From assembly GCA_030592625.1 (NCBI GenBank), contig JAUVIY010000010.1:1-20769 (forward strand): a stretch of 20,769 bases of DNA, read 5' to 3'. Position numbers and translations under genes: made by a program. This document shows positions 1,793 through 17,556 of the stretch, one piece after another (the stretch's first letter is position 1; every line of letters begins with the position of its first letter). The notes under the pieces were generated by a model. That model was not told where the DNA came from and made no database searches. It worked only from the letters and a program-made list of their open reading frames with translations. Source of the DNA: Spirochaeta sp. (GTDB lineage Bacteria; Spirochaetota; Spirochaetia; DSM-2461).

Positions 1793-2758
1793 TTAACCAA
1801 AAGGAACCCTTTCACATGCTTCAGAAAAATACTCCATATCCTGTTCCAATATCCAATCCCAATCCGGGAAAAACATCTTTCCTCCGGATGCCAATGGTTC
1901 TGGAGGGGTAACTGAAGGATCTGAAGGAAACGCAAGAGCCTGATCTCTGTAGAATTCGATAAACTTAAGGCTTGCCGCTGAGTTGGCTAGGAAATTCACT
2001 ACCGCTTCTGCCTTTTCTGAGTTCCGTATTGCGGTATAGGAAGGGAGAACCGGCGCTCCCTCCAAGGGGTGAATTGCAAGCAGCTTATCCCCAGGTCCGG
2101 GGCCCGCAAATATCCCCGGCAACAAGGCAATGGGCAGCTCATCCTTCACTAGACCGTGCCGGGCCGCGGAAGGGGCACTTTTCTGACGCCAGTTCTTTAT
2201 GCAGGTTTCCAGCCCCTCTTTTCCGAACTTGAACCACATACCGAAAAGAACTGATTTTGCCGAAGGAAGCTCAGTGGCACCAAGAAAAATTTTTCCAGCC
2301 CAGTATGGATCAAGAAGATCTTCAAGACTCCGGGGTATTTCACTTTCACTAAGAAGTTTCGTATTGGCCACAATATAATGAGGAAGTATCACCAGAGGGT
2401 GGAACAGCCCGGCAGAATCAACGGCTCCGCTATTACGAACTTCCTCTCTTATGGAAAAACATTCACTAAGGGGAAATAGTTTATCGGTATGACTTTGAAG
2501 ATACTTCCGGGAACAGAAAAGATCAAAACGACTACTGACAAGCAGGTCAAACCCCAGTTCTCCCTTTGCCATATCCTCATCCATTTTCTCATACATTTTC
2601 ACCTCTTCAGTGTCTCCAAGGTAGATGAATTGAGGACTCAATGAATGAGAATCCTTCCAAATCCGGGCGTCGGCCTCCATCTTTTCTTTTTCCATTCTGT
2701 TGAGAATACAGAGGTTGGCCCAATAGACCCGCAACTCATTCTTGACGGTTCCTAACAT
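1793..2758 (-). CDS. Cytosolic binding-protein-like protein (ABC solute-binding fold, no signal peptide)
   Basis: A 321-residue protein resembling iron/thiamine-type extracellular solute-binding proteins. It has a FDLLVSSRFDLF segment, then HPLVILPHYIVANTKLL, then SLEDLLDPYWAGKIFLGA, which corresponds to the 'W.DLLDP.wkGki' signature of that fold, and AVVNFLANSAASLKFIEFY near the C-terminus. The N-terminus (MLGTVKNELRVYWANLC) has no hydrophobic export signal and no lipobox, so as written the protein stays in the cytoplasm. It is the last gene of a three-gene operon: its ATG overlaps the stop of the upstream ATPase by 7 bp and has an AGGAAG 8 nt upstream. No permease is encoded with it. The function is not known to me; binding a metal, chelate or cofactor intermediate for the neighbouring NTPases is an inference. 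Confidence 0.75.
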   Translation of the reverse strand: MLGTVKNELRVYWANLCILNRMEKEKMEADARIWKDSHSLSPQFIYLGDTEEVKMYEKMDEDMAKGELGFDLLVSSRFDLFCSRKYLQSHTDKLFPLSECFSIREEVRNSGAVDSAGLFHPLVILPHYIVANTKLLSESEIPRSLEDLLDPYWAGKIFLGATELPSAKSVLFGMWFKFGKEGLETCIKNWRQKSAPSAARHGLVKDELPIALLPGIFAGPGPGDKLLAIHPLEGAPVLPSYTAIRNSEKAEAVVNFLANSAASLKFIEFYRDQALAFPSDPSVTPPEPLASGGKMFFPDWDWILEQDMEYFSEACERVPFG

Positions 2759-3546
2759 AACGATTCTTCCTGTATATAGATTAAATCCTCTACCGAGAGA
2801 GATTCTCCACAGCGTATCCGGTTCTGAGCCGTGAGGATTTTTTCGGTAAATCCTTCAAGAAGATATTCCGCTTTTCTTTCCTCATCGGTAAGGGTAAGGA
2901 TTTGATTCATACCGCCGTTTTGCATAACGATTCTCCGGTCTCCCATAAGGGCAAGTAGAGGATCATGAGTTACCAGAAGAACAATCTTTCCCTTTCCTGC
3001 CAATAGATCCATGGCTTTACGACGGTCGATACCGGCATTCTCAACCTCATCGATTAAAATAATGGGTGAGTTGCTGATGGTCGCTATATCAGCAATCATC
3101 AATGCACGGGATTGACCACCCGAAAGACTTGTCAGGATATCATCCTCTCTTACCGGTTCTCCCGCCAGAGTATTGGCGTACTCCATCACCTCTCCTATCA
3201 AAGAGTCAGACTTTTTGATTCCCCTGCATTCACCGTGGAGATGGAGAAAATCTTTAACACCCATTTCCAGGGTAAAATTCATGTTCTGCGAAAGATGCGC
3301 AACGATTTTTACATCAGGATCATACCTGGTGGAATAGTCCGGCGATTGCCCGTTGATGAGTATCTTTCGCTCTGTGATCGTATCCCTTTGTGCCATTTGC
3401 TCAATATCACTGATAAGCTGACTCTTGCCGGATCCGGTAAACCCAACGATACTGTAGATCTGCCCGCTTTCAATTTGTAAAGAGTCGATCGGTTCAGGCC
3501 GGCCGGTTTTATCTTTTCCACCCAGTATGGTTATTGTTTTTGACAT
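2752..3546 (-). CDS. Orphan ABC-type ATPase of the GTPase/ATPase/binding-protein operon
   Basis: A 264-residue single-domain ABC ATPase. Starting from MSKTITILGG it shows Walker A GFTGSGKS (residues 35-42), a Q-loop in AHLSQNMNF, the signature LSGGQSRALMIAD, Walker B IILIDEVENAGID and the H-loop LLVTHDP. The D-loop region 'ENAGID' differs from the usual SALD/NLD of transport ATPases. No membrane partner is encoded beside it, so it may act as a soluble mechano-ATPase rather than an importer subunit. I chose the ATG at 3544-3546: AAAGGAGG and a second GGAG lie just upstream, and the start overlaps the GTPase end by 16 bp. An ATG 27 nt earlier would add a basic MWKRRRRTV extension. It is translationally coupled to both neighbours. 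The substrate is unknown. Confidence 0.8.
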   Translation of the reverse strand: MSKTITILGGKDKTGRPEPIDSLQIESGQIYSIVGFTGSGKSQLISDIEQMAQRDTITERKILINGQSPDYSTRYDPDVKIVAHLSQNMNFTLEMGVKDFLHLHGECRGIKKSDSLIGEVMEYANTLAGEPVREDDILTSLSGGQSRALMIADIATISNSPIILIDEVENAGIDRRKAMDLLAGKGKIVLLVTHDPLLALMGDRRIVMQNGGMNQILTLTDEERKAEYLLEGFTEKILTAQNRIRCGESLSVEDLIYIQEESLC

Positions 3547-4265
3547 AACCGTTCTCCGCCTCCTTTTCCACATGGGAAATCCATTTTATACACCGCGCCC
3601 TGCTGAAACTTTGTTCCTACACGCATTTCTCCCATGCAGTAAGAACAGACCGCGGTGGGCATGGGATGGCGGAGTCTGGCGCCAATAAGATCAGTGGCAT
3701 CCTTCCTGTCCAGAAGCAGTTTGGCAACATGCTCACTTCCTGCACCGGTAATACCATTGGCTTCTACGATGTCGGCGTTGGGATTTATTCGGCGGATTCG
3801 GCTTCGAAAGACTTCCCTCTCGGCCTGACTGATAGAATCACCTTTAACAATGATAACAATGTCAGCAGTGGTAAGAACCGGTCCGACCTTTTCGGGAATT
3901 TTTATACTGGAATGACTGTCAATAACACATACCGAGAGTGCCTTATCGATACCGGGGGCACACCGGTGGCAGAGGCCGGCAGTTTCCACAATAAGCAGAT
4001 CTGCATCTTCCCCTCCCGCCCAGGTAATCATTTCTTCCAGGTTTACTACGAAGTAGTGGTCCGGACAAATGTCCCCACTCAATCCGACAATCACCGGTAC
4101 ATCAATACCGGCATACCGCTGATCATCCTCTGTGGCAAGACAGTCAATTTTAGATACCGCTGTTTTAATCCCCAGCCGCTGAAGGCATTTTATGGAATGG
4201 ATCATCACAGAAGTTTTGCCACAAGCAGGAGGACCAGCCACAATAATGACCTTTGGCTTTCTCAT
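3531..4265 (-). CDS. HypB/UreG/CobW-like (SIMIBI) GTPase with extra Cys pairs
   Basis: A 244-residue P-loop NTPase. Walker A is GPPACGKT (residues 11-18), a conserved Asp sits in KIDCLATEDD (41-48), and a switch-type DLLIVETAGLCHRCAP (89-104) resembles the 'vETaG/ENvGnlvCP' element of UreG and HypB metallochaperone GTPases. The guanine-specificity NKxD is replaced by IVKGD, so GTP rather than ATP use is inferred only from the family. Cysteines stand out: C67, C99-x2-C102, C113, C207-x2-C210, C232 and C241. They suggest metal or Fe-S binding outside the core fold. It is the first gene of the operon; its ATG has AGGGAG 5 nt upstream. Its likely role is NTP-driven metal or metallocofactor delivery with the two downstream proteins (inference). 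Confidence 0.75.
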   Translation of the reverse strand: MRKPKVIIVAGPPACGKTSVMIHSIKCLQRLGIKTAVSKIDCLATEDDQRYAGIDVPVIVGLSGDICPDHYFVVNLEEMITWAGGEDADLLIVETAGLCHRCAPGIDKALSVCVIDSHSSIKIPEKVGPVLTTADIVIIVKGDSISQAEREVFRSRIRRINPNADIVEANGITGAGSEHVAKLLLDRKDATDLIGARLRHPMPTAVCSYCMGEMRVGTKFQQGAVYKMDFPCGKGGGERLCQKQ

Positions 4266-4282
4266 GAGCTCTCCCTGAATCC

Positions 4283-4312
4283 CTTCCAGGCACGCTGAAG
4301 CGCTTCCAGGCA
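4283..4312. repeat. Two 10-bp direct repeats, 20-bp period, in leader of the GTPase operon
   Basis: The sequence CTTCCAGGCA occurs at 4283-4292 and again at 4303-4312, exactly 20 bp apart (about two helical turns). They lie between the candidate promoter and the ribosome-binding site of the minus-strand operon. Between and overlapping them is the 10-bp palindrome GAAGCGCTTC. It may be a regulator-binding site or chance. Confidence 0.35.
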
Positions 4313-4324
4313 GAACTACTCCTC

Positions 4325-4355
4325 TTTATACACATATTAGGCTTTACCAAGTCAA
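4325..4355 (-). promoter_or_regulatory. Candidate promoter of the GTPase/ATPase/binding-protein operon
   Basis: On the minus strand TTGACT (4350-4355) is followed by TATAAA (4325-4330). Both hexamers are good, but the 19-nt spacer is at the upper limit. The position, about 60-90 nt before the GTPase start, is reasonable. Confidence 0.35.
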
Positions 4356-4387
4356 GTAGTGAATATTTTATTTATTAGATAAACCTA

Positions 4388-4417
4388 TTGACAGAACAAG
4401 GTTAATCTTGCTAAATA
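4388..4417 (+). promoter_or_regulatory. Promoter of the FecBCD-TM1266 operon
   Basis: A perfect -35 TTGACA (4388-4393) is followed after 18 nt by TAAATA (4412-4417) in an AT-rich stretch; alternative -10 registers (CTAAAT, AATAAT) overlap it. The predicted transcription start falls inside the downstream palindrome, so that element would act as a DNA operator. Confidence 0.55.
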
Positions 4418-4439
4418 ATGTTAGACACTTCTAACATTA
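4416..4439. promoter_or_regulatory. Perfect 24-bp palindrome (operator) before the metal-importer operon
   Basis: TAATGTTAGA (4416-4425), a 4-nt spacer CACT, then TCTAACATTA (4430-4439): perfect 10-bp arms. It begins at the -10 region and ends on the first base of the AAGGA ribosome-binding site of the FecB-like gene (ATG at 4450). The placement is that of a repressor operator. A metal-responsive regulator (Fur, DtxR/MntR or similar) is the natural guess because the operon imports a metal chelate, but the half-site does not match a consensus I can name with certainty. No regulator gene of those families is in the window. Confidence 0.6.
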
Positions 4440-4449
4440 AGGATTTATC

Positions 4450-5613
4450 ATGAAAAAAATTCTTGTTTATTTTGTTTTTTTATCTCTTACCACTGGGATG
4501 GTTTTCGCAGGAGGAGGTAAGGAGCCTCCTTCTGGGACCGGAACTGAGGCTGAGACCAAAATCGAAACACCAGAGTTTATAACCGTTGTTGATGATCGGG
4601 GAATGGAGGTTAAAATCAGGAAGAATGTAAGTGCGATTGCCACCTTTCCTCTTCCTCACCCCCACATTATTGCTGCTATTGATGGGGGGGTTGACAGGAT
4701 TATCGGTGCCAGCTCCATGTCTGTATCCGCTGCAAAGATTTCAGTCTTCGGCAAGATGTACCCTGAACTGTATAATGTTGAAACAGGTTACCTGAAAGGA
4801 CTGTCCCTCAACGTGGAAGAGCTGGCCCGAATACAGCCGGATGTATTCTTTACCGACAAGGTTCTGGAAGGAATGGAAAATCTGGAATCTACAGGTATTC
4901 CCGTTGTTTACATGGGGCTGAAAAAAGAAACTATCCCTTATGCCAACGGAGAAACTGAGGTCTTCAGCCCCAAAACGACAATGGAAGACTGGGTCAATAT
5001 AACCTCAGAAGTTCTGGGTAAAAATGAGTCGAAAGCTGTGGAAATCGCCCAGGTATGGGAGAATACAGAAGAGGAGATTCTGACAGTCATTTCTAATATC
5101 CCAATAGATGAAAGACCCAGAGTCTTAATTCTGTTTAAAACCAAAGGGATGCTGATAGCGGGTGATGGAACATTCGGACACTACTGGATTGCCCGAACCG
5201 GCGGTATCAACGCAGCGGAAGAATTGAAGGGCGAACACTGTGCCATGATAAAAGCGGGCAACTTCGAAGACATCATGAAATGGAATCCCGATATCATATA
5301 CCTTTCTAATTTTGAGGATACCATGCCTGAAGATCTCTATAGAAACACCATTGACGGCCAGGATTGGTCTAGCATCAATGCGATAAAGAATAAGAAGGTA
5401 TACAGAATTCCTCTGGGTATTTACCGCTGGTATCCACCAAGCCTGGATGGCCCGCTGATGCTCAAATGGATGGCTCAAAAAAACTATCCCGATCTTTTCA
5501 AATACGATATGGCAGCGGAAATTACTTCCTACTTTAAGGAATTCCATTTCTATGAACTGTCCAACCAGGAAGTTGAAGCCATCCTTAATCCTGCCTCCTC
5601 GGGTAATCTTTGA
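4450..5613 (+). CDS. Periplasmic metal-chelate (FecB/BtuF-type) binding protein
   Basis: A 387-residue substrate-binding protein of an iron-siderophore/cobalamin-class ABC importer. A signal peptide is clear: MKK, a hydrophobic core, then a signal-peptidase-I-like site VFA followed by GGGKE near residue 20, a mature N-terminus typical of spirochaete binding proteins. There is no lipobox Cys. The family pattern is present: ITVVDDRGMEVKI near 43, NVEELARIQPDVFF near 119, ILFKTKGMLIAGDG near 223, WNPDIIYLSN near 278, and a C-terminal NKKVYRIPLGIYRWYPPS. The start has AAGGA 6 nt upstream. It is first in an operon with permease, ATPase and a TM1266 protein. The ligand (ferric, cobalt, nickel or other chelate, or heme/corrinoid) cannot be told from sequence; no cobalamin riboswitch is upstream. 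Confidence 0.88.
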   Translation: MKKILVYFVFLSLTTGMVFAGGGKEPPSGTGTEAETKIETPEFITVVDDRGMEVKIRKNVSAIATFPLPHPHIIAAIDGGVDRIIGASSMSVSAAKISVFGKMYPELYNVETGYLKGLSLNVEELARIQPDVFFTDKVLEGMENLESTGIPVVYMGLKKETIPYANGETEVFSPKTTMEDWVNITSEVLGKNESKAVEIAQVWENTEEEILTVISNIPIDERPRVLILFKTKGMLIAGDGTFGHYWIARTGGINAAEELKGEHCAMIKAGNFEDIMKWNPDIIYLSNFEDTMPEDLYRNTIDGQDWSSINAIKNKKVYRIPLGIYRWYPPSLDGPLMLKWMAQKNYPDLFKYDMAAEITSYFKEFHFYELSNQEVEAILNPASSGNL

Positions 5614-5628
5614 GTAAACTTTTTATAA

Positions 5629-6657
5629 ATGAAAGTACTTTCGGTAAAACAAGGATCACCCCTGATCTTTATTATTCTTACAGTTCTTGTCATGGTAGCG
5701 TTCATTCTTGCTCTGGCAGTAGGCCGCTATCCGGTCCCCCCTGGGCGGGTGTTCAAAATACTCTCTTCGACAGTCATACCCGGAAGGGGGGATTGGAGTC
5801 CCATCACCGAAAGTGTCATCCTGAAAATTCGTCTCCCCAGGGTTGGTATGGCCCTGGCAGGAGGGATAGGTTTAGGAGTTTGTGGTGCTATTTTCCAGGG
5901 TATTTTCCGCAATCCGCTGGTAAGTCCCGGTGTCGTAGGAGTTACCAGCGGTGCCGGATTTGGGGCGGCCCTGGCGATTCTCATCTTCGGCATGGGAATT
6001 ATGACTCAGCTCTTTGCCTTTCTTTTCGGCGGCGGGGCGCTTCTATTGACATGGACTATTACGAAACGAACCCGGGGTAGTTCTCTTCTTGTCTTTGTCC
6101 TTTCTGGTGTAATCATCAATATGTTCTTCCAGGCGATGATCTCCCTGGTTAAGTTCATGGCCGATTCGGAGGAAAAACTACCCTCCATCGTCTACTGGCT
6201 TATGGGTTCTCTCTCTTCCTGTTCCTGGCGGAAGATATCTTTTATCATACCTTTGATTCTTATAATTTCCATGATTTTGGTACTCATGAGGCGGCGGATA
6301 AACCTTCTCTCACTGGGAAATGAAACGGTGCTGAGTCTGGGCGTTAACCCTGCGGTACTCATGAATATCATCCTGGTATTAACCACCGTCATCGTTTCCG
6401 CTATCGTTTCTATCGCAGGAATTGTGGGGTGGATCGGCCTCATTATTCCTCATATTGCACGAATGATTGTGGGACCGGACCACGAACGCCTTATCCCTGC
6501 CAGTGCACTTCTGGGAGCGATTTTCTTCATGACAGTCGATACTGTCGGCCGGACTATCTCCCCTCAGGATATCCCTCTGGGAATCCTGACAGCCCTCCTT
6601 GGAGCACCGCTTTTTATCGGGTTATTGATTCGAACAAGAGGCGAGTGGAATCTGTGA
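5629..6657 (+). CDS. FecCD-family ABC permease
   Basis: A 342-residue multi-span inner-membrane permease that forms the homodimeric channel of the importer with the binding protein upstream and the ATPase downstream. Family signatures are visible: ILKIRLPRVGMALAGGIGLGVCGAIFQ near residue 65, RNPLVSPGVVGVTSGAGFGAA near 95, VAGIVGWIGLIIPHIARMIVG-like IAGIVGWIGLIIPH near 263, and DTVGRTISPQDIPLGILTALLGAPLF close to the end. Length is typical (330-350). A stop codon at 5626-5628 makes the ATG at 5629 the earliest possible ATG in frame. No Shine-Dalgarno is evident, so translation may be coupled to the upstream gene, which ends 15 nt before. Confidence 0.93.
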   Translation: MKVLSVKQGSPLIFIILTVLVMVAFILALAVGRYPVPPGRVFKILSSTVIPGRGDWSPITESVILKIRLPRVGMALAGGIGLGVCGAIFQGIFRNPLVSPGVVGVTSGAGFGAALAILIFGMGIMTQLFAFLFGGGALLLTWTITKRTRGSSLLVFVLSGVIINMFFQAMISLVKFMADSEEKLPSIVYWLMGSLSSCSWRKISFIIPLILIISMILVLMRRRINLLSLGNETVLSLGVNPAVLMNIILVLTTVIVSAIVSIAGIVGWIGLIIPHIARMIVGPDHERLIPASALLGAIFFMTVDTVGRTISPQDIPLGILTALLGAPLFIGLLIRTRGEWNL

Positions 6658-7463
6658 CTATCTCTATATCCAACGGAAGCTTCTCGTACGATGGGAAAAA
6701 GGAGATCTTTCACAACCTGAATTTTCTCCTGAAAAAAGGAGAAATTCTTTCGGTTCTCGGCCCTAATGGTTGTGGAAAAACAACGCTCCTTAAGATCCTT
6801 CTGGAGATTCATCACCTCTCGGGAGGTGTTATGAAGGTGGATAATCAACCGTGCAGACACGGCCGCAACGGCAACCAGCACTTCGGTTATGTACCCCAGA
6901 GTACCGGAGTTCCTGTGGCCTACTCGGTATTTCAGATGGTACTTCTGGGCCGTTCCCGGTTTATCGGTACATTTTCCCGGCCATCCCCAGGTGATTATCA
7001 GAAAGTGGAAGAGATTCTCAAGATGGTAAATATCTCCCACCTGGCCGTGAGATCCTTTGCTTCCTTAAGCGGAGGAGAACGCCAGTTAGTGCTCATCGCC
7101 CGGGCTTTAGCCACAGAAGCCCGGGTACTTGTATTCGATGAACCCACCTCGTCACTGGATCTGGTAAACCAGCACCATACAGTGGAACTCATGAGAGTTC
7201 TCTCCCATGAAAAGGGCTACTCCATCATATTCTCCACCCATGATCCCACCCATGCCCTTCACATCTCTGATAATACGATCCTTATAAACAGAGAAGGAAC
7301 CTCACTATTTGGCCTGACAAAAGAAATGATTACAGAAAAACATATGAAACTTCTTTTTGGAGTGGAGACTCGTATCCTCGATCTATCTCTGAACGAGGGG
7401 ATGGTTTCCCGTGGGGTGATGCCAATACTCCCGCCTTTTAAGCCGAGGGCCGTAAACTCATGA
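6654..7463 (+). CDS. FecD/BtuD-type ABC importer ATPase
   Basis: A 269-residue ATPase that powers the FecBC-like importer. Walker A is GPNGCGKT (residues 36-43), the Q-loop lies in GYVPQSTG, the signature is LSGGERQLVLIARAL, Walker B is VLVFDEPTSSLD and the H-loop is FSTHDP. I chose GTG at 6654: it overlaps the permease stop as GTGA, has a GAGGCGAG ribosome-binding site just upstream, and gives the family-like N-terminus MTISISNGSFSYDG. An upstream in-frame extension would lie wholly inside the permease gene and has no family resemblance. The stop overlaps the next gene by ATGA. Confidence 0.92.
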   Translation: MTISISNGSFSYDGKKEIFHNLNFLLKKGEILSVLGPNGCGKTTLLKILLEIHHLSGGVMKVDNQPCRHGRNGNQHFGYVPQSTGVPVAYSVFQMVLLGRSRFIGTFSRPSPGDYQKVEEILKMVNISHLAVRSFASLSGGERQLVLIARALATEARVLVFDEPTSSLDLVNQHHTVELMRVLSHEKGYSIIFSTHDPTHALHISDNTILINREGTSLFGLTKEMITEKHMKLLFGVETRILDLSLNEGMVSRGVMPILPPFKPRAVNS

Positions 7464-7714
7464 GGGTGGGAATCATCAGCATCGCTATCTATAAAGTGGA
7501 GAAAGTCAATCAGGTGAATCAAATCATTACTGAGAACAGTTTCATCGTTCTGGGTAGAATGGGAATGCCCTTACAAGAGCGGTCTATGAAGCTCATATCT
7601 CTGATTGTAGAAGGAAATACCGACGTTATCGGTCGAATGGCTGGGCAGATCGGAGAAATCGATGGGGTAGAAATTCAATCCATGCTGATTAAAGAATTAA
7701 ACAAGAAAGGGTGA
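7460..7714 (+). CDS. TM1266-family iron-only hydrogenase system putative regulator
   Basis: An 84-residue protein with the TM1266 pattern: an N-terminal IISIAIYKVEKVNQVNQIIT, then FIVLGRMGMPLQERSMKLISLIVEG, where GRMGxPxxERxxxxIS is the family hallmark, then DVIGRMAGQIGEIDGVEIQ. Known members form a small ACT/NikR-C-like domain and usually sit beside [FeFe]-hydrogenase maturation genes (hydE, hydF, hydG). They have been proposed to be regulators but have no DNA-binding domain. Here no hyd gene is in the window; instead it is the last gene of a metal-importer operon and overlaps the ATPase stop by ATGA, so co-translation is very likely. Confidence 0.85.
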   Translation: MRVGIISIAIYKVEKVNQVNQIITENSFIVLGRMGMPLQERSMKLISLIVEGNTDVIGRMAGQIGEIDGVEIQSMLIKELNKKG

Positions 7715-15324: not shown

Positions 15325-15449
15325 GCCGGTGTTCATCATCACGACTGGGTAAGGCTGACCCGGACCCGGAAGCCTTCGACGCTGAAGATGCTGTACTTGC
15401 TGATTTTACAGATGATTGCCCTCAAAAGAATAAACATGGATAAAATGAG

Positions 15450-16253
15450 ATGACAACGATACCTTTCAAGAGAATAATCTTTTCTCTACTTATCACTGTT
15501 ACTGTATCATCCTTTTGGGGATGTACATTCATCAGACAATCTATCGCTGTTTTGAGGTCAACAGACCATTTCGTCACACACAAAAACGACTCCAGACTCT
15601 TATTTGAACCAGGTGCCGAGGACTATGCAGATAAGATTGTCTTATTTCTTTCTTCAGCGATTCAACGAGTTGAGGAAAAACAATATCGCTTATTTACCAA
15701 GCCGGTTCGAGTATACATTTGTGCATCGAGAGAGAGCTTTGCACGAATGTACGGGGCTGATGTTAGAGCAGGGGTGCTGACGAAGTTGTTTCTTTCTCCC
15801 CGCATCTTTGAAGACGGGGATGAAATTGCAAAACTGTATCTCATCCATGAGTTGTCCCATCTCCATATCCGGGACCAACTCGGTAACTACAAAGTGAGCC
15901 GATTGCCATCCTGGTTCAAAGAAGGTTTGGCTACCTATGTTTCAGATGGTGGAGGTGCGCACACGGTAACAGAAAAACAAGCGATTGATTCAATAAAATC
16001 AGGTAAACATTTTATTCCCAATAAAACAGGTGGTTTTATTTTTCAAAAGACTGCCAGTGACTGGAGTTTGGAACATCATATGTTTTATCGTCAAAGCATG
16101 ATGTTTATCAGTTATCTGGCGGCAATAAACGAATCCGGATATCGAAAACTTCTCCTGGGCATCGAAAATGGTGAACGGTTTTCTACCGCTCTTCAAGCAG
16201 CATTGGAAAATTTGTGGAACAATTTCCTGTATGAAGTTAACAAGACGGGTTAA
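15450..16253 (+). CDS. Putative lipoprotein metallopeptidase (gluzincin-like)
   Basis: A 267-residue protein with an export signal (basic TTIPFKR, hydrophobic IIFSLLITVTVSS) and C25 in SFWGC, a relaxed spirochaete-style lipobox. The catalytic motif HELSH is at residues 133-137, and WFKEGLATY follows with E158 as the expected third zinc ligand, the 'MA-like' peptidase pattern also called DUF4157/peptidase_MA-like. The protein is probably an envelope-anchored zinc peptidase; its substrate is unknown. No strong ribosome-binding site precedes the ATG (GGA 11 nt upstream). Base composition is noticeably more AT-rich than the uup-DUF3187 operon before it, hinting at acquired DNA. Confidence 0.75.
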   Translation: MTTIPFKRIIFSLLITVTVSSFWGCTFIRQSIAVLRSTDHFVTHKNDSRLLFEPGAEDYADKIVLFLSSAIQRVEEKQYRLFTKPVRVYICASRESFARMYGADVRAGVLTKLFLSPRIFEDGDEIAKLYLIHELSHLHIRDQLGNYKVSRLPSWFKEGLATYVSDGGGAHTVTEKQAIDSIKSGKHFIPNKTGGFIFQKTASDWSLEHHMFYRQSMMFISYLAAINESGYRKLLLGIENGERFSTALQAALENLWNNFLYEVNKTG

Positions 16254-16322
16254 CAACCGCATCAACTCGGACCGGCAAGTCCGTTACGCTTTATTACCAA
16301 CCGGTTACACAGAGGAATCACA

Positions 16323-16886
16323 GTGCAAATCACGTATCCTGAACTCGGAATCTGTGGCCTTTCCTGCAGGCTTTGTCCTCGGTACCATACTGTGGGCAAG
16401 AGCAAGTGCGGCGGCTGCAAGAGTGAATATCGAATGGGGGCAGGCTGTCCATTCATCACTTGCGCAGTGAAGAAAAGGGGAATCGAGTTTTGCTGGCAAT
16501 GTACTGAGAAAGGCACATGCGAGAAGTGGCATAAGCATAGAGCGTTTGGAGCAAATCAGGATACCTTCAAATGCTATCAGAAACTTGAAGATAACATTGG
16601 CTGTATTCAGCGGAATGGCGTGGATGCGTTTGAAGAAGTGCAGAATGTAAGAGAGCGGTTGCTTGGTAAGATGTTACAGGAATTCAATGAGGGACGCTCA
16701 AAGAGTTATTACTGTATTGCTGCAACGGTGTTGGGGGTAGAGGAGCTGGAAACAGCCCTGGTCCAGGCGAGGAGGGATTCGGCCGGGCTGGAGATCAGGG
16801 ACAAATCCAGGATTCTCCATTCGATACTGGATAAAATAGCCGAGGGAGAACGATATTATCTGAAGTTGAGGAAGTCGGGTTCTTGA
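16323..16886 (+). CDS. Cys-rich DUF3795-type protein
   Basis: A 187-residue protein whose first 66 residues carry ten cysteines: C11, C15, C18, C29, C32, C42, C47, C57, C60 and C66. The pattern 'GICGLSCxxCPRY...CxGC...CPFxxC...xxFCWQC...CEKW' is that of DUF3795, a family of unknown function thought to bind zinc or an Fe-S cluster. The second half is helical with no recognised domain. The GTG start at 16323 is supported by AGAGGA 6 nt upstream and places the first Cys motif at the N-terminus as in the family. Directly after its stop, in the same frame, lies the remnant of a PIN-domain toxin gene. Confidence 0.75.
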   Translation: MQITYPELGICGLSCRLCPRYHTVGKSKCGGCKSEYRMGAGCPFITCAVKKRGIEFCWQCTEKGTCEKWHKHRAFGANQDTFKCYQKLEDNIGCIQRNGVDAFEEVQNVRERLLGKMLQEFNEGRSKSYYCIAATVLGVEELETALVQARRDSAGLEIRDKSRILHSILDKIAEGERYYLKLRKSGS

Positions 16887-17015
16887 GTCGGTCGGGGCGC
16901 AAATGTCGAATACCTCGTCACAGGCAACAAAAAGCATTTCCCGAAAAATCTGCGATGCGGTATTGAGGTGTTGTCACCCCGCGAGTTTCTTGACGTATTG
17001 AAAGAACCTCACTGA
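16887..17015 (+). pseudogene. Remnant of a PIN-domain toxin gene (C-terminal 38 residues)
   Basis: Reading from 16899, the frame encodes ANVEYLVTGNKKHFP, then NLRCGIEVLSPREFLDVL, ending at a TGA at 17013-17015. 'A.YLVTGD.KHF....I.I.SPREFL.iL' is the C-terminal signature of PIN-family toxins of toxin-antitoxin systems (the VapC-like 'toxin component, PIN family' group). There is no start codon and no upstream half: the frame is closed by the stop of the DUF3795 gene at 16884-16886. The catalytic Asp residues of the N-terminal part are absent, so it is a dead fragment. Confidence 0.6.
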
Positions 17016-17076
17016 ACAAGATAAATCTGTCGAAAACCCTCCCTCACCAGCAGGAAAACAGAATATACTTCCGGTT

Positions 17077-17556
17077 ATGGTGTATTTAATCAGTGGAAAA
17101 AAGAACGAAGGGAAAACGACGCAGCTGAAGCAGCTCTTTGAGGAAAAGAAAAACGCTTTCGGCTTCATTGCCGAGAAGGTAAACGACTGCGGAAGAGTGA
17201 CAACATATAATCTTGTCGATCTTACCACCGGAGAGAAACGCACATTGGCCCGACTGGCAAGCCTCCCGCTGCCGGAAGACTGGGGCGAGGACTTCAGCCA
17301 CGGACCTTTCAAATTCTCTTTATCCGGCTTCGAGTGGGCCCGCAAACTGTTCATGTCGGCAACCAATGCCGGTGCCGAGAATTTCTTTATTGATGAGTTG
17401 GGGAAACTCGAACTGGACGGTAAAGGTCATGCTGAACTGATCAGATCGGCACTGGAATCCGGGATTACTCTTTATATCTCCATCAGAAATATCAATATCG
17501 AAGAGGCCGTGAAGGTTTTCGGCATCAAGGAACACTCAATCATCAAGGTCAATTAA
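17077..17556 (+). CDS. THEP1-like P-loop NTPase
   Basis: A 159-residue soluble NTPase. Walker A is GKKNEGKTT (residues 7-15), and Walker B lies in NFFIDELGKLEL with D106-E107, the 'DEiGkmEl' hallmark of THEP1-type nucleoside-triphosphatases (PF03266-like). These proteins hydrolyse NTPs in vitro; the cellular role is unclear. Length is near the family usual (about 170). No Shine-Dalgarno precedes the ATG closely; a TATACT hexamer lies 7 nt upstream (17064-17069), and an alternative promoter, TTGAAA (16998-17003) with GATAAA (17020-17025), lies further back. The gene runs tail to tail into the flavin oxidoreductase with an 8-bp overlap. Confidence 0.75.
   Translation: MVYLISGKKNEGKTTQLKQLFEEKKNAFGFIAEKVNDCGRVTTYNLVDLTTGEKRTLARLASLPLPEDWGEDFSHGPFKFSLSGFEWARKLFMSATNAGAENFFIDELGKLELDGKGHAELIRSALESGITLYISIRNINIEEAVKVFGIKEHSIIKVN

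Follow-up and report, generated by a model that had tools for sequence, protein, structure and literature searches.

Substrate-binding proteins (SBPs) of the SBP_bac_6 class are known as exported proteins that pass their ligands to membrane permeases. The genome of a Spirochaeta sp. (assembly GCA_030592625.1) raises the question of what such a protein does inside the cell: contig JAUVIY010000010.1, from which a stretch of 20,769 nucleotides (hereafter the window) was analysed, encodes an SBP lacking an export signal in one operon with a GTPase and a soluble ATP-binding cassette (ABC) ATPase, facing an operon for a FecBCD-type importer. An initial annotation had interpreted this arrangement as a self-contained cytosolic import-and-insertion pathway linked to [FeFe]-hydrogenase maturation. 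The trio of soluble proteins is a real conserved system rather than a chance arrangement, and it exists in at least three forms, designated A, B and C, with the window carrying form A.

Conservation of the trio

The trio forms the leftward, minus-strand operon of the window in the order GTPase, ABC ATPase and SBP, with overlapping genes. The HypB/UreG-like GTPase (3531..4265, 244 amino acids; PF02492, E=5.8e-14) carries the motifs CPDH, ETAGLCHRCAP and CSYC, the soluble ABC-type ATPase (2752..3573, 273 amino acids; PF00005, E=4.3e-14) carries the signature LSGGQSRALMIAD together with IDEVENAGID, and the SBP_bac_6 protein (1793..2758, 321 amino acids; PF13343, E=3.9e-19) is predicted by hydropathy to be cytosolic.

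A search with the GTPase returned 2012 proteins at E<=0.001, possibly including other GTPases of the class, and at least 548 GTPase loci were confirmed in genome contigs, of which the best-scoring 80 were analysed and therefore lean towards the query. Together with the window, these 80 loci, reached by the GTPase search alone, contain 84 GTPases. The family ABC ATPase adjoins 83 of the 84 on the same strand and the SBP adjoins 80, as counted with family profiles built from the same loci and with near-copies (for example L063/L064 and L072/L080) each counted singly; the one GTPase without the ABC ATPase (L086) and the four without the SBP are all located at contig ends. In the full set of 99 GTPases in 96 of 97 loci, the ABC ATPase stands beside 98 and the SBP beside 95. 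The 84-GTPase figures are preferred for linkage, because the 15 others came from kin loci fetched through an SBP search.

Among the best 80 of the at least 548 loci, the trio is carried by Bacillota, Spirochaetota, Cloacimonadota, Planctomycetota, Fusobacteriota, Pseudomonadota, Methanospirillum and others, a Methanospirillum and a Vibrio record included; many of the carriers are anaerobic bacteria and some are archaea. The co-occurrence beyond close relatives on which the initial annotation depended is thus found across many phyla. The three GTPase motifs are conserved in an alignment of 19 sequences, as are the ABC ATPase motifs LSGGQSRALM and ENAGID in 89 family members. An apparent GTPase-ABC fusion in L063, L064 and L090 was rejected as an overlong reading frame over the GTPase.

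A binding-protein fold placed in the cytosol

The window SBP has no hydrophobic N-terminal stretch, its hydropathy reaching 1.29 compared with 2.46 for the FecB protein of the facing operon. When export was judged by N-terminal hydropathy, not by a dedicated signal-peptide predictor, none of the 80 trio SBPs showed a strongly hydrophobic N-terminus, which all 21 importer SBPs of these loci did show. These values agree with the earlier claim of a binding protein without an export signal, and a missed signal peptide was rejected on the same grounds; judged by its N-terminus, the trio SBP is cytosolic. No permease gene lies between or beside the trio genes in the window, the rest of the genome not having been searched for one, and the trio loci likewise offer no permease for the trio, the facing FecBCD importer owning a separate permease and ATPase. 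The description of the ABC ATPase as lacking a permease therefore holds for the trio loci.

The structure model of the window SBP (pLDDT 93) is predicted to share the type-II periplasmic binding-protein fold of FbpA, with Foldseek/VIA matches to ferric-binding proteins; the two-component-system protein 6lkg is also among the fold matches. Two cysteines of the window SBP, C17 and C82, are kept among its close homologues.

Three forms of the system

In a tree of 92 GTPase sequences, one branch with 100/99 support separates a group with short ABC ATPases (form A, including the window) from a group with long ABC ATPases (form B). By form, the loci comprise 23 of form A, the window included, and 76 of form B. 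The 23 form-A GTPases include one contig twice (L029, L062), with L061 assigned to form A by gene order and L086 and L122 by the tree, while L057, L059 and L081 carry both forms.

The host genome also carries both. At the N-terminus of its form-B SBP stands a DUF1858 domain (47.0 bits, cut-off 32.2), a part common to other form-B SBPs by alignment only, and a small CxxC protein stands at the end of several form-B operons. The host form-B locus (L028, contig C299, 7776-11391) encodes an Rrf2 regulator, the DUF1858-SBP, the GTPase, the long ABC ATPase and a CxxC protein of 80 amino acids; near it are an NMT1/Ssu-like importer and genes that are P-type-ATPase-like, DtxR-like and FeoB-like, the last three identified by eye.

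Form C was encountered in the phylum of Petroclostridium among matches of about 200 bits, and consists of the ABC ATPase, the GTPase and a protein with an iron-sulfur (FeS) motif, without an SBP. This arrangement occurs in 12 of 12 readable loci (L170-L182), drawn from 13 of 16 low-scoring matches that were fetched, 12 of them giving a callable GTPase and one (L175) not. PF04060 was detected in all four form-C third proteins scanned, and a match to the gamma subunit of acetyl-CoA decarbonylase/synthase lies far below its cut-off.

Form B is tied to hybrid cluster protein and HcpR

Hybrid cluster protein (Hcp) is encoded within 20 of the 76 form-B loci and in none of the 23 form-A loci, with about 0.3 expected at one hcp per 3.5 Mb; these counts include fragments (L031, L068, L078, L112). 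Exact HcpR boxes, as given in the accessible part of PMC1274295, are situated upstream of 16 of the 76 form-B operons. The box GTAACnnnnGTTAC (GTAACn4GTTAC) accounts for 13 of these promoters, with 0.33 expected, and the box TTGACnnnnGTCAA (TTGACn4GTCAA) for three, which belong to one clade (L030, L033, L037) and are the only instances found. Three control palindromes occur in 0 of 76 form-B promoters, and of nine further GTAAC boxes located elsewhere, three adjoin hcp. No exact HcpR box was found upstream of the 23 form-A operons, the window included. The Desulfovibrio HcpR1 box, as presented in part of PMC5701242, differs (TGTGA-N6-TCACA), a motif outside the present scan. The HcpR regulon, as far as the accessible part of PMC1274295 describes it, names hcp, frdX and respiratory genes and not the trio.

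Across whole genomes the trio and Hcp are weakly associated, and this co-occurrence is not taken as proof. In a sample of the spirochaete phylum, the GTPase is present in 7 of 149 genomes and Hcp exceeds its cut-off in 44. Five of the seven have Hcp, each on the GTPase contig at a gap under 2.2 kb, while Hcp was not found in the host (73% complete) or in G130 (99% complete). For the phylum to which Petroclostridium (G187) belongs, the GTPase is present in 29 of 199 genomes and Hcp over cut-off in 144, with Hcp standing beside form B in four of six form-B regions fetched. Since Hcp is common without the GTPase in both samples, it does not need the trio. Among relatives, the SBP was taken as form B in 22 of 41 genomes, 18 of which have Hcp over cut-off, and Hcp is still present in 10 of the 19 without it. 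In the host, the regulator encoded with form B is of the Rrf2 type instead (78.3 bits, cut-off 73.3).

Form A, importers and the facing operon

Within 7 kb, importer genes accompany 16 of 19 form-A trios compared with 11 of 69 form-B trios, the importer clusters being defined by recurrence, which may undercount in form B, and the window FecBC having been added by hand; most form-B loci have no recognised importer. Methyltransferases of one cluster recur beside form-A trios and importers (L044, L046, L048-L052, L054, L057), the single one scanned (L044) being Methyltransf_11, and a radical SAM protein of 600 amino acids is encoded in the form-A loci L051 and L054.

In the window, the two tightly packed operons diverge from a common promoter region of 184 bp (4266..4449). 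A likely sigma-70 promoter of fecB (4388..4417, plus strand; TTGACA, 18 bp, TAAATA) was recognised by reading the sequence and is absent from the three sites of a promoter scanner. Its -10 element is overlapped by a perfect palindrome, TAATGTTAGA-N4-TCTAACATTA (4416..4439), a putative operator. The palindrome core TGTTAGAN4TCTAACA has one further exact copy in the host assembly (L159:780-797); on one side of it lies a DtxR-like/FeoA-domain gene, and directly downstream follow feoA-feoA-feoB-like genes, the feoB-like one truncated by the contig end; the feo-like and DtxR-like names were given by eye from translations, not by family search. With up to one mismatch allowed, the host has two sites versus none for a reversed control pattern, and of 10 such sites in eight other genomes, one (G012) precedes feoA-feoB-like genes. 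In the other form-A loci, the pattern TTAGRN4YCTAA occurs between genes once, at a distance of about 3.6 kb from the L058 GTPase; the TTAGR-N4-YCTAA layout is that of DtxR boxes. The palindrome offers moderate evidence for a putative iron regulation of the facing importer.

The rightward, plus-strand operon (4450-7714) encodes a FecB-type substrate-binding protein with a hydrophobic N-terminus (4450..5613; PF01497, E=3.1e-19), a FecCD-type permease, FecC (5629..6657; PF01032, E=2.4e-84), an importer ATPase of FecE/FecD type (6645..7463; PF00005, E=7.7e-29) and a TM1266-family protein (7460..7714; TIGR03959, 81.6 bits, cut-off 60.8). The importer ATPase frame opens at 6429, with GTG 6645 or GTG 6654 as its likely starts by inspection. 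The divergent layout, the 184-bp gap and the importer with TM1266 facing the trio are as the initial annotation had described them, with every gene in place. Its observation of an AT-rich block is correct in value, at 46.5% GC versus 54.1% in the flanks, and fails as a distinguishing mark: low GC is not special to the trio/importer block, because a second segment of the window (15400-17550) is equally AT-rich at 45.5%. That segment encodes peptidase-MA-like, DUF3795 and NTPase_1 genes.

What the trio may do

The most likely explanation, still a tentative one, sees the trio as form A of a conserved soluble system: a cytosolic carrier with a ferric-binding-protein fold would be loaded with iron, or with an Fe-S precursor, and would release it again, both steps being driven by the GTPase/ABC-ATPase pair. 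An iron chelate would be brought in by the FecBCD importer, the imported metal would be taken over by the cytosolic SBP, and the two nucleoside triphosphatases (NTPases), probably in a complex with it, would time the transfer of metal from the SBP to an apo-enzyme or an assembly scaffold. In form B, the system may supply or repair iron clusters under nitrosative stress beside Hcp, and in form C the FeS-motif protein would replace the carrier. Iron is favoured because of the palindrome shared with feo-like genes and the ferric-binding-protein fold, and, for form B, because of Hcp and HcpR. More doubtful is the broader picture in which anaerobes possess a whole family of such machines, driven by NTP and delivering iron in the cytosol with a carrier that the NTPase pair charges and empties: one branch would be fed by importers, another would supply or repair hybrid cluster protein during nitric oxide stress, and a third would have been rebuilt around an Fe-S protein.

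Several observations weigh against iron delivery. The predicted fold is common to non-metal binders, and the form-B SBP model ranks pyridoxal-phosphate and sugar-phosphate binders first. FbpA binds Fe3+ through a pair of tyrosines, and in a profile alignment to 7li0 this pair falls on I216-F217-A218 of the window SBP, the TYYYG of 7li0 being aligned with the profile GIFAG (a sequence alignment only, not a residue-level structure comparison) and F217 being present in 28 of 28. Binding of bare Fe3+ in the manner of FbpA is thus unlikely for the window SBP, as far as this alignment indicates. Only 8 of 18 form-A SBPs have the first-strand cysteine. The importers next to form A belong to different classes (FecBCD, NMT1/Ssu-like, Dpp/Opp-like and ModAB-like), so that one common metal for form A is not established. 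The palindrome with up to two mismatches occurs at two host sites versus six for the reversed control, and with up to one mismatch at 12 sites over 25 genomes versus 16; it overlaps the fecB promoter, and control of the trio by it is not supported. Finally, the host genome, 73% complete, yielded no Hcp.

The same machinery may instead handle another metal or chelate (Ni, Co, Mo/W), as a metallochaperone set taking the cargo of the neighbouring importer in the way that HypB/UreG serve nickel. The GTPase is nearest to HypB/UreG by profile, and Dpp/Opp-like and ModAB-like importers stand beside some form-A trios; this is nevertheless unlikely, as the ferric-binding-protein fold, the feo-shared palindrome, the Hcp/HcpR linkage of form B and the FeS motif of form C point to iron.

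Less probable again is an NTP-driven reductive activator, in which an Fe-S or corrinoid enzyme would receive low-potential electrons, or be activated by a conformational change, in a process powered by the GTPase/ABC pair, with the SBP or the FeS protein facing the enzyme. A soluble ABC-type protein acts in the activation of methyl-coenzyme M reductase, providing an analogy. The form-C third protein, with its FeS motif and its far-below-cut-off match, and the CxxC motifs of the GTPase are compatible with such a role; however, scans of form-A and form-B proteins turned up no FeS domain, the SBP has a fold suggestive of a small ligand, and the linkage to importers is left unexplained.

Sensing or gating, with the cytosolic SBP signalling that a ligand has been imported and the NTPases regulating importers or enzymes, is improbable: it is in line with the importer linkage of form A and the fold match to 6lkg, but two NTPases retain conserved catalytic motifs, most form-B loci have no recognised importer, and neither a DNA-binding nor a kinase domain was found in the trio.

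The cytosolic pathway of the initial annotation stands in part: a cytosolic SBP fold, linked with a metallochaperone-like GTPase and a soluble ABC ATPase, does lie beside an importer, whereas the link to [FeFe]-hydrogenase maturation is not supported. By single-sequence search, TM1266 was found beside the trio in none of the loci examined except the window. Of 24 other genomes, from relatives that have TM1266, 11 place its gene within 1.4 kb of HydG; elsewhere it follows, by eye, ilvD-, transketolase- or rlmN-like genes, and it is therefore a poor pointer to hydrogenase here. (It comes directly after an ilvD-like gene, by eye, in L144, L145, L146, L148 and L156.) Hydrogenase maturation, very improbable although the facing operon has TM1266 and 10 of 19 form-A genomes score above the HydG cut-off, was rejected as the main explanation on the distribution of HydG and TM1266: HydG was not found in the 73% complete metagenome-assembled host genome (HydE and HydF were not searched for) nor over cut-off in 9 of the 19 form-A genomes, some of them incomplete, and the trio occurs in a Methanospirillum and a Vibrio record.

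Relation to known systems and significance

The trio resembles several known systems without coinciding with any of them. HypB and UreG share the PF02492 family with its GTPase (52.5 bits, cut-off 20.7) and are its best named profile matches, but the GTPase remains far below their equivalog cut-offs (40.2 of 121.2 bits for HypB, 23.2 of 204.2 for UreG), has cysteine motifs of its own, and has as its partner an ABC ATPase, joined by an SBP in forms A and B. Periplasmic ferric-binding proteins (FbpA, SfuA, FutA, HitA) have a fold like that predicted for the window SBP, which, unlike them, lacks both an export signal and a tyrosine pair at the aligned position and is encoded with soluble NTPases rather than with its own permease. 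ABC importers differ in having a permease, absent from the trio loci, and an exported binding protein. SufC and others are soluble ABC-type ATPases of Fe-S assembly; SufC likewise acts in the cytosol without a membrane partner, the partners in the trio being a GTPase and an SBP. With respect to the HcpR regulon, in so far as PMC1274295 is accessible, form B has the published boxes and often adjoins hcp, while the window form A lies outside it.

No description of the trio was found in open-licence PubMed Central (PMC) papers, a coverage that leaves subscription journals mostly outside, and the accessible parts of PMC1274295, PMC12915319, PMC5701242 and PMC10502027 do not mention it. Because no characterised counterpart was found in those open-licence papers, the architecture, a cytosolic SBP worked by two soluble NTPases, is judged to be new.

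An SBP branch that is cytosolic and accompanied by two soluble NTPases changes the use of the binding-protein fold and, if the proposed function is true, would represent an intracellular counterpart of ABC import. To our knowledge, intracellular iron delivery in anaerobes and a possible need of the hybrid cluster for helpers are both open questions, and the system would be the first dedicated machinery known to us for maturation or repair of the hybrid cluster. The link of form B to hcp and HcpR boxes opens a direct genetic route in culturable carriers, such as Halanaerobium (L101, L109).

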